From Gallionellales bacterium GWA2_60_142 (GTDB taxonomy: Bacteria; Pseudomonadota; Gammaproteobacteria; Burkholderiales; Gallionellaceae), in NCBI GenBank assembly GCA_001801085.1, contig MGWR01000061.1, positions 1-64,000 on the forward strand: DNA of 64,000 nt, in the 5' to 3' direction. How positions within the stretch are numbered: the first letter of the stretch is position 1; each line of letters begins with the position of its first letter. The notes beneath the pieces were generated by a model. It saw only the letters and a program-made list of their open reading frames with translations, was not told where the DNA came from and did not search any database. The translations under genes were made by a program, and so were the position numbers. Of the stretch, positions 16,278-18,441 are shown one piece after another.

Positions 16278-16751
16278 ATGAGCCAACCCCGCTTCCTCTG
16301 CGACGAAATGCTGGGCCACCTGTGCCGCTACCTGCGCGCCGCCGGCTACGACACGCTGCTCGCGAACGGCGGCCGGCGCGACGCCGAACTGCTGCGGCAA
16401 TGCCGCGAAGAAGGCCGCTATTTCCTGACGCAGGACACGCTGATATCCGAACACAAGGCCGCCGACGGCATCGCGCTGATCCTGCCGCATGCGCCGCTGG
16501 ACCACCTCGTCGAACTGATCGACGCGCGCTTCCATATCGACTGGCTGGCCCATGCCTTCACCCGCTGCCTGATGGACAACACCCCGCTGGTTCCCGCCGA
16601 CGAAGCCGCGACGGCGCGCATCCCGCAAGACGCGCGACGCCCCGACGAACCATTGTGTCATTGCCCGACATGCAGAAGAGTCTACTGGCGTGGCTCGCAC
16701 TACAAGCGCATGCATGCGAGACTGGAGGCGTGGCAGCGGAAAAATACATAG
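16278..16751 (+). CDS. Mut7-C RNase domain protein
   Basis: 157 residues matching the Mut7-C (DUF82) family: an N-terminal PIN-like nuclease part (FLCDEMLGHLCRYLRAAGYDT; YFLTQDTLI) with acidic residues at positions 9-10 and 54, and a C-terminal zinc ribbon (CHCPTCRRVYWRGSHYKRM). Presumed RNase; substrate unknown. There is no Shine-Dalgarno; TAATAT ends 6 bases before the ATG, so it may be transcribed leaderless. The gene is GC-rich like the chromosome, unlike its neighbour at 16837. Confidence 0.85.
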   Translation: MSQPRFLCDEMLGHLCRYLRAAGYDTLLANGGRRDAELLRQCREEGRYFLTQDTLISEHKAADGIALILPHAPLDHLVELIDARFHIDWLAHAFTRCLMDNTPLVPADEAATARIPQDARRPDEPLCHCPTCRRVYWRGSHYKRMHARLEAWQRKNT

Positions 16752-16836: not shown

Positions 16837-17838
16837 ATGAATAGATCATTGAAGCTTTCCGTCGTACAGGGCGACGCCTTCACATTTGAAGGCGATGTAT
16901 TGGTGCTTAAGTACGCCCAGAGCCTTTATGGATTGGACAAGGCTGTTCACATGCGGATTCGACAGCAAGGGATTGCTCTGGAATTACCCGATGTCAACGA
17001 TGAGGTAATTATTGAAACCCATGGAAGCCTGCTCGCAACCAGAGTCTTATTTGTTGGCGTAAAGCCGCTAAGACAATTCAATTATTCTGAAATTCGCGAC
17101 TTTGCAAGAAGAGCACTTGCCTCGCTCACTCACAAGGTACCAAGTGCTCGTCACATCGTATTCACAGTACATGGGGCGGGTTATGGACTGGACGAAACGG
17201 AAGCATTTGAATCGGAAGTTGCTGGAATCGTAGAAGCCGTAACCGGAGGCAATTTCCCAAAATCTATTGAGGCCATAACATTCATTGAATCCGATCAAGG
17301 GCGCGCTGACCGATTGTCCAAATCACTGAAGAAGCTATTACCGACGGGGAGCTTGCTCATTGATGGATACAGCTCGGTTTCAACGTTGACCGCTGAATCT
17401 CAAGATACTCTTCGAACTGCTGGTTATTCTTCAGCAGGGAAACCTCACATATTTGTTGCGATGCCGTTTGCAGCAGAAATGGACGATATTTATCACTATG
17501 GAATTCAAGGTGCAGCAAACGCATCAGGATTACTTTGTGAGCGAGCTGATCTCTCTATTTTCACTGGTGATGTTATGGAATGGGTCAAAGCACGAATAGC
17601 ATCTGCAAAGTTAGTGGTCGCAGATCTTTCGTCGGCAAACCCAAATGTCTATCTCGAAGTCGGCTACGCATGGGGTTGCCGCGTTCCGACAGTTTTGCTG
17701 GTCCGAGAAACTAGTGACTTAAAATTCGATGTAAAAGGACAACGTTGCATTGTCTACAAGTCAATCAAGCAGCTGGAGGAGTCCTTGCAGCGTGAATTGC
17801 AGGGATTGCCTCAAATAATTCCTCATCTCTATAGCTGA
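16837..17838 (+). CDS. Two-domain protein: macro/M17N-like plus nucleoside-deoxyribosyltransferase/TIR-like
   Basis: 333 residues, soluble. Residues 5-165 look like a macro-type or peptidase-M17 N-terminal fold: VVQGDAFTFEGDVLVLKYA, VLFVGVKPL, then HIVFTVHGAGYGLDETEAF, which resembles the glycine loop that holds ADP-ribose in macro domains. Residues 205-325 look like the nucleoside-2-deoxyribosyltransferase/TIR-like superfamily: HIFVAMPF at the first strand, VVADLSSANPNVYLEVGYAW with the conserved Asp and candidate catalytic Glu, then VPTVLLV. Such folds hydrolyse NAD or nucleotides in several anti-phage systems. Codon use is AT-richer than the neighbours and a 600 bp repeat mosaic follows, which suggests acquisition. 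Defence role is inference; domain calls are by eye. Confidence 0.6.
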   Translation: MNRSLKLSVVQGDAFTFEGDVLVLKYAQSLYGLDKAVHMRIRQQGIALELPDVNDEVIIETHGSLLATRVLFVGVKPLRQFNYSEIRDFARRALASLTHKVPSARHIVFTVHGAGYGLDETEAFESEVAGIVEAVTGGNFPKSIEAITFIESDQGRADRLSKSLKKLLPTGSLLIDGYSSVSTLTAESQDTLRTAGYSSAGKPHIFVAMPFAAEMDDIYHYGIQGAANASGLLCERADLSIFTGDVMEWVKARIASAKLVVADLSSANPNVYLEVGYAWGCRVPTVLLVRETSDLKFDVKGQRCIVYKSIKQLEESLQRELQGLPQIIPHLYS

Positions 17839-17849
17839 CCCTGCGGTCA

Positions 17850-18415
17850 TGCAAGCGTAGGGCGCTATAACCGACAAGCATTGCATCGCATGGGAACCAT
17901 CAGCGTGGCGACAGCCACGCTGACTACAAAAAACAAACCGTGCGCGCAGCGCACACCACGCCCGCCTTTCCTTCCCCTGTGCGCCGCCGAGTAGCGGAAA
18001 ACGGTCAGGGGTAGTCGGCGAGGACTGTCTGAGCGCGTAGCGCGAGTTCCGCAGCCGCCTGACCGTTTGAGCAACGCAGGGAACCGCGCAGCGGCGGCAA
18101 ACCGGGGTCGCCTTTTCTTCGGTCACCTTCTTTTGGCGAAGCAAAAGAAGGTGACTTGCTGCCGGGCAACCCCCGGCGATTTTGGTTTTGGTCGTTCATG
18201 TTTCGATACGGCCTTCGGCCTACTCAACACGAACGGACAGAGCGACATCCCAGCTTCTACCCTCACCCTAGACCTCGTAGGGCGCAATCCCCGCAAGGGG
18301 GAGGCCGTGGTTGTACAGCCGCTAAAGCGGCAACAACCACGCACTAACCAACGGGCATTGCGCCGTATAAATCGCAAACATCCGGTGCAATGCGCTACGC
18401 TTATTGCACCCTACA
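17850..18415. repeat. Mosaic of dispersed hairpin repeats, no gene
   Basis: The 603 bases between 17838 and lptG hold no credible gene. They contain a perfect 14 bp stem (18122-18135 with 18142-18155, gtcaccttcttttg/caaaagaaggtgac), GCCGGG/CCCGGC beside it, the stem GGTGCAAT/ATTGCACC (18384-18391, 18403-18410), tagggcgc-type modules near 17860 and 18270, and a run of inverted segments around 17990-18070. Short ORFs here are low-complexity and lack ribosome sites. This looks like nested mobile repeats. Confidence 0.6.
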
Positions 18416-18441
18416 ACTGCTACGGAACTCACCGGACAGCT

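Follow-up and report, generated by a model that had tools for sequence, protein, structure and literature searches.

A 333-residue protein joining a macro/M17N-like domain to an NDT/DrHyd-type domain in a Gallionellales genome, a candidate nucleotide-responsive N-glycosidase

Introduction

DNPH1 is a nucleotide-monophosphate hydrolase and is not known as an NADase, and Retron-Eco1 reportedly involves NAD+ hydrolysis with an effector of the NDT type. TIR, DrHyd and SLOG domains are grouped in excerpts of PMC9503650 as one class with NADase effectors, alongside macro domains as processors or sensors of ADP-ribose (ADPr), and DrHyd is listed among the effector domains of conflict systems in excerpts of PMC7159879 and PMC8195603, the former also listing macro domains. 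According to the available portion of PMC11204291, the macro domain of Thoeris ThsA binds ADPR, with an adenine-contacting role seen for D83, and ThsA has a transmembrane part and works beside a separate TIR gene. In Swarozyc, according to the available part of PMC13174449, a phage portal activates DUF4062, a TIR-like NADase.

The stretch analysed here, termed the window, comprises 64,000 nucleotides of a contig from Gallionellales bacterium GWA2_60_142, has a gene content that points to a betaproteobacterial host, and contains a complete forward-strand gene at 16837..17838, an ORF with an ATG start encoding 333 amino acids. A preliminary description had proposed that this protein fuses a macro or M17 N-terminal (M17N) fold to an NDT/TIR-like fold and had called it a candidate for an undescribed system, a designation that fits the excerpts of the literature searched for it, in which no description of a fusion of macro with deoxyribosyltransferase or with NADase was found.

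Each of the closest described systems covers part of this architecture. The fold and the best profile match of the N-terminal domain are common to the N-domain of M17 leucyl aminopeptidase (PepA, PF02789), but the window protein is without a peptidase domain, and GD and HG..YG motifs of the macro type occur in its N-domain; filing as an M17 peptidase was rejected on the NDT fold of the C-terminal half, the Pfam matches including no family of M17 catalytic domains. With MacroD (PF01661) the fold is common (Z ~16), whereas the NAAN of MacroD is replaced by KYAQ. The Thoeris domain kinds, TIR-like and macro, are present in both, in separate genes there and on one chain here, and filing under Thoeris was rejected on the lack of a ThsA/ThsB gene pair and of a recurring partner across phyla. 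The DNPH1/Rcl and NDT superfamily (DrHyd; PF05014, BcmB) shares the fold and Glu motif of the C-terminal domain, which differs in being fused to a macro/M17N domain and in scoring below the PF05014 cut-off. The idea of a sensor joined to a TIR-like NADase is common to DUF4062/Swarozyc and CAP12 TIR, whose partner domain differs; filing under Swarozyc was rejected, no match to DUF4062 (PF13271) being found among 52 members.

Homologue search and alignment

Homologues were sought in 84,980 species genomes with the motif HGxx[YF]GLDExEA in back-translated form, a scan that gave 70 loci, 68 of which encode relatives of the window protein by tblastn, the other two (L062, L082) being chance motif matches outside the family. 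Family counts are lower bounds, members with another motif being missed by this pattern, and the invariance of H112, G113, Y/F116, G117, L118, D119, E120, E122 and A123 is likewise forced by it. Interrupted or cut copies (L067, L079, L101, L102, L103, L113) were kept out of the alignments, the fullest of which has 63 rows (62 loci and the window), while A1 (52 rows) and A4 (39 rows) are subsets picked by hand to avoid redundancy. Invariant in A1 outside the pattern are Y83, G130, F206, D217, E235, R236 and I254, together with A262, V271, L273, G276, A278 and I310. The C-terminal domain follows the motif in 63/63 rows, no other partner domain being seen among motif-bearing members.

With the N-domain as protein query, searches of 398 and 369 genomes returned noise only beyond the window itself, three candidates from them (L032, L034, L046) being judged by eye to be unrelated enzymes, and a profile search of the 398 genomes recovered the window only. 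Viral contigs held no confirmed relative, the nine matches of a looser motif there all being chance, and phage and plasmid records held none covering 80% of the query. A reading of the gene as phage cargo was rejected, the gene not having been found in phage or viral records.

Predicted structure and domain assignment

Structure prediction from the single sequence gave a pLDDT of 36; the AF2 model used instead, built on the 52-row alignment A1, has a mean pLDDT of 92.4 and a pTM of 0.91, with the two halves confidently modelled as separate folded domains. The sequence blocks quoted in the preliminary description are present in the ORF, namely GDAFTFEGDVLVLKYA at residues 12-27, HGAGYGLDETEAF at 112-124, HIFVAMPF at 204-211 and NPNVYLEVGYAW at 268-279. 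The two-domain make-up is invisible to Pfam alone, which gives a single sub-threshold Nuc_deoxyrib_tr match (E 0.026, residues 252-295, 15.1 bits against a cut-off of 28.8). NCBIfam adds one meaningless match (E 0.19) and the PADLOC 'Effector, TIR' model matches residues 252-316 at 7.4e-11, so that Pfam, NCBIfam and PADLOC name the C-terminal half at most.

The N-terminal domain (residues 2-187, 16840..17397, forward strand) has a macro/M17N fold, matching the PepA N-domain 1gyt_A with Z 16.3 (rmsd 2.5, 162 aligned), macroH2A 1yd9_C with Z 16.2 and PARP9 macro 2 (5ail_B) with Z 16.1 (VIA-align 2), while model residues 2-189 also reach Z ~15-16 to YmdB and an Oceanobacillus macrodomain. Profile comparison by hhalign gave probabilities of 94.1 (local) and 95.7 (global) to 25 PepA N-domains over 159-168 columns, 41.4 (local) and 77.2 (global) to 32 MacroD domains in a collinear alignment of 150-155 columns at ~25% identity, 21 to a smaller set of 20 MacroD domains, and 2.8 to the PepA of the window alone. 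The closest profile is thereby M17N, followed by MacroD. Compared directly, the MacroD and M17N profiles do not match each other (probability 0.2), and the C-domain profile matches neither (<1 each); since the N-domain matches both families, which miss each other, it is intermediate in sequence, and its family connects M17N with macro domains at the sequence level. At the level of Pfam, PF02789 is touched by 6/52 members (best E 0.0037), and the nine families that these 52 match at E<=0.1 do not include PF01661 (Macro).

The macro GD motif is kept in QGDAF around Asp13 (16867..16881, forward strand), which aligns with the macro GDIT/ADVT block, and the HGAGYGLDETEA loop (residues 112-123, 17170..17205, forward strand) is collinear with the macro STGVYG loop. 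Residue 13 is D in 51 of the 63 rows, N in four, G in one and X in one, with six gaps, while K25 and A27 are present in 57/57 rows with a letter. We take the position of Asp13 to be that of the adenine-contacting Asp of macro domains, and NAAN, which is absent from the N-domain, to be the catalytic/ribose motif of MacroD. The conserved Asp13 and the collinear loop suggest, from alignment, a retained pocket.

The C-terminal domain (residues 200-325, 17434..17811, forward strand) has the NDT/DNPH1 fold (DrHyd, TIR-like), with Z 15-16 and rmsd 1.7-2.4 to DNPH1, the match to 8rps_B reaching Z 16.2 (rmsd 1.9, 121 aligned; VIA-align 2), and no TIR chain among the 50 structure matches listed. Foldseek agrees on the folds and adds the CMP N-glycosidase BcmB (4jen_B). 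Among the 52 aligned members, PF05014 is touched by all at E<=0.1 (best 5.2e-6) and the PADLOC 'Effector, TIR' model (PDLC00733), which we take to be of CBASS origin, also matches all (best 7e-16); CAP12-PCTIR_TIR (PF10137) is touched by three (best 0.0088), and the TIR families PF13676 and PF01582 are not among the matches. By hhalign the C-domain profile aligns with NDTs over 43 columns (probability 92) and with CAP12 TIR over 78 (probability 74), and in a sequence search of the PDB the family profile matched CMP/hydroxymethyl-CMP hydrolases only (4 chains, E 0.07-0.96). The NPNVYLEVGYAW block (17638..17673, forward strand), aligned with the NDT Glu block, holds Glu274 (codon 17656-17658) as the putative catalytic residue, the conserved Glu of the NDT/DNPH1 superfamily being presumably the nucleophile. 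Residue 274 is Glu in 60/63 rows and Gln in three; these three (L088, L106, L111) are all from Chloroflexota and are perhaps inactive versions. The two folds proposed beforehand are thus both upheld by structure search, neither half falling into an unrelated fold, and the Glu looked for in the C-terminal half is intact in all but these three rows.

Distribution and evolution

The 52 rows span 12 phyla and, in a tree built by a quick method with no bootstrap, the label 'phylum' needs 21 changes where the minimum possible is 11; this is an unnamed family, laterally spread over many bacterial phyla. The window sequence groups with Chlorobiaceae (L060) and Crenothrix (L096) at an SH-aLRT of 99, both being 79% identical to it. 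Myxococcota rows need two label changes and form nearly one clade. One sequence labelled Comamonas sp. (L077, BNCN01000010.1) falls inside the Myxococcota rows, and its record may be misnamed.

Ten of the 68 copies look interrupted, with stops inside the match in four (L067, L070, L075, L095) and a split over frames in six (L071, L074, L079, L102, L103, L113), many of them lying on MAG contigs where assembly error is possible. Interruptions of this kind would suit an accessory gene that can be dispensed with, provided that they are not assembly errors. Four further loci have a stop at the match end, as judged from coordinates, and are outside this count, while L096 and L101 are truncated by an edge. 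At L103:5086-7205 the two domains are encoded in different frames by pieces separated by ~1.2 kb, the split falling between residues 171/179, which represents either a linker insertion or a natural split.

Pairwise identity is higher in the C-domain than in the N-domain in 1316/1326 pairs, with means of 57% and 40%, a difference to be expected if the sensor of an enzyme evolves faster than the enzyme itself. Ratios of dN/dS, from those of 13 pairs tried that had usable dS, some being saturated, range from 0.06 to 0.59 in the N-domain and from 0.03 to 0.17 in the C-domain, and judging from these values both halves are under purifying selection.

Genomic site and neighbourhoods

The gene has a GC content of 46.3% in a window of 57.7%, and a GC3 of 41.7%, where five reference genes of the window, taken in frame, have 81-84% (two more, out of frame, being left aside). 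Its flanking genes are, by eye, Mut7-C-like and lptF-like, and no ThsA/ThsB-like pair lies beside it among neighbours judged in the same way. On one side it is flanked by an interspersed repeat mosaic (17839..18441, unstranded), which occupies the space up to the lptF-like gene and matches 33 genome places, its own included, mainly through one ~220 nt block at 17967-18190 plus shorter blocks. Rfam gave no match to the mosaic at E<=0.1, and no match to a sigma-70-type promoter was found.

The adjacent sodB and Mut7-C-like genes are kept in four related genomes (G009, G027, G021, G018), similarity to which ends with the Mut7-C-like gene (window 16735-16738). Neither the 333-residue gene nor the lptF-like gene was found at this site in these genomes, in stretches of 12 kb each (3.7 kb for G018), and the site is therefore variable. 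The N-domain was not found in 198 relatives (199 genomes searched, own included), all matches in the relatives beginning at query residue 152 or later. The gene is foreign and horizontally acquired, on the basis of GC3, the variable site, the missing N-domain in relatives and the patchy tree; the preliminary description had already suggested acquisition from AT-rich codon use and the adjacent repeats, and both observations stand.

Neighbours were scanned at 39 non-myxobacterial loci (<=8 kb each; 189/193 ORFs of >=140 aa, some antisense ORFs included), with 23 myxobacterial-type loci lying outside the family scan. Most homologues whose adjacent genes were read by eye have neighbours without an evident conflict role, and neither a recurring partner gene across phyla nor a recurring nucleotide-metabolism neighbour was found. 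Cross-phylum neighbour clusters amount to two locus pairs at different distances, one with a CheB-like gene (L059 together with a locus of myxobacterial type) and one with a topoisomerase-like gene (L070 and L114), while neighbours of the myxobacterial homologues are partly shared.

TIR, SIR2 or DUF4062 neighbours occur at 4/39 of the non-myxobacterial loci. Near L060, the nearest homologue, lies a SIR2_2-TIR_2 fusion protein with an nSTAND1-WD40 protein after it on the same strand (L060:3666-6902), and the opposite flank of the homologue holds a type I MTase fragment; L090 has TIR-kinase and TIR-FGE proteins as neighbours, and L099 a DUF4062 (PF13271) protein. The L058 homologue lies 98 nt from an opposite-strand gene for a protein of 541 aa that has a TIR near its C-terminus, assigned on a motif and on PDB TIR chains at 6e-6 and weaker. 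An AIG1 GTPase neighbours L057, and a WD40 neighbour at L073 was set aside as not of conflict type.

At 1e-10, raw PADLOC matches comprise 13 families over 98 flank proteins and 33 over 91 (many from one kinase), against nine families over 120 control proteins (120/126 ORFs sampled at 20 fixed positions across 12 genomes belonging to the host's phylum), family counts not being convertible to protein counts. Control taxa are unmatched, and the raw counts are therefore no evidence of enrichment. A small TIR profile found 0 in the 120 control proteins, the same profile also having missed the TIR at L058. The raw PADLOC matches are not clearly above the rough control, and as a sign of a conflict role the TIR/SIR2/DUF4062 neighbours at the four loci are suggestive only.

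Proposed function

What follows on activity and substrate, on the ligand and its switching, and on the role in the cell is our inference. The C-terminal NDT/DrHyd domain would be an N-glycosidase cleaving a nucleotide glycosidic bond via Glu274, most likely with NAD+ as substrate, and the N-terminal macro/M17N-like domain, whose packing against it is predicted with confidence, would offer a regulatory pocket for an ADP-ribose-like nucleotide that switches the enzyme; less likely, the N-domain would take a protein trigger. The best reading, to which we give even chances of being right, is accordingly worded as a self-contained nucleotide-binding switch with an NAD+/nucleotide N-glycosidase. The gene is probably an accessory conflict gene, most likely serving as an effector in abortive infection or cell suicide; a defence function is plausible, and the gene may be a one-gene NAD-linked defence switch. 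Speaking for this reading are the two predicted folds, the conserved Glu274, the 'Effector, TIR' matches of all 52 members, the better conserved C-domain, the patchy tree, the interrupted copies and the TIR/SIR2/DUF4062 neighbours at four loci, with the DrHyd class, Swarozyc, ThsA and Retron-Eco1 as precedents. Standing against it are the greater nearness of the N-domain to M17N than to MacroD, the best known M17N members not being known as ADPr binders, the absence of NAAN, the small share of loci (4/39) with such neighbours and DNPH1 as the best structural match of the C-domain; the near-single clade of Myxococcota with partly shared neighbours looks more like a resident function than a conflict role.

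A bolder form of the same reading, tentative and on balance doubtful, is a one-protein immune or suicide switch in which a macro/M17N-type pocket reading ADP-ribose or a cyclic derivative gates the DrHyd NADase of the same chain. If this were true, reader and maker of an ADP-ribose-type signal would reside in one 333-residue protein, the effector product would be the sensor ligand, so that this Thoeris circuit in one polypeptide could be self-amplifying or self-limiting, and feedback in NAD-based immunity would become testable with one purified protein.

The structural match that defines the C-domain can also be read as house-cleaning, in which the domain, like DNPH1 or BcmB, strips abnormal (deoxy)nucleoside monophosphates of their base, the N-domain serving for structure or specificity. 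DNPH1 being the best structural match, CMP/hydroxymethyl-CMP hydrolases being the only PDB sequence matches, many homologues lying amid genes without evident conflict role and the Myxococcota members forming nearly one clade all agree with it, whereas the patchy cross-phylum spread and the interrupted copies (10/68) are unlike a housekeeping enzyme, nucleotide-metabolism genes do not recur as neighbours and the N-domain keeps conserved pocket-type residues, leaving this reading unlikely in our estimation.

Two further readings turn on the N-domain. Its nearness to M17N rather than MacroD and its faster evolution would suit a domain that binds protein or oligomerises, for instance as a phage-protein sensor, with the C-domain as an NADase released on binding, and DUF4062/Swarozyc with its phage portal, as described in the available part of PMC13174449, provides a precedent; Asp13 and the loop collinear with macro ligand loops suggest instead a retained pocket, and such a protein-switched effector is considered improbable. 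The protein might alternatively regulate or scavenge ADP-ribose-type signals from neighbouring TIR/SIR2 systems, not being itself a toxin, in keeping with the processing of ADPr derivatives by macro domains in excerpts of PMC9503650 and with the TIR/SIR2 genes near some homologues; with TIR/SIR2/DUF4062 neighbours at only 4/39 loci, the MacroD Asn motif not conserved and no conserved partner, this is judged very unlikely. Between these alternatives, the nucleotide-binding switch with its N-glycosidase is retained as the preferred reading.

Related DrHyd-type proteins

C-domain relatives with other partner domains are common in related genomes. The host genome itself encodes a second DrHyd protein at L241:2582-3421 (G000:C48), which has 46% identity over window-protein residues 198-325, carries a different, C-terminal partner, and sits, by eye, between dksA-like and pnp-like genes. 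Proteins of more than 600 aa with an N-terminal DrHyd domain (L011, L012, L018, L029) are recurrent in relatives, and some plasmid matches of this N-terminal domain are annotated 'TRAFs-binding domain'. DrHyd-type matches also occur in proteins of 35 phage records (H41-H70), mostly of Streptococcus and Staphylococcus phages, the rows listed having 24-30% identity.
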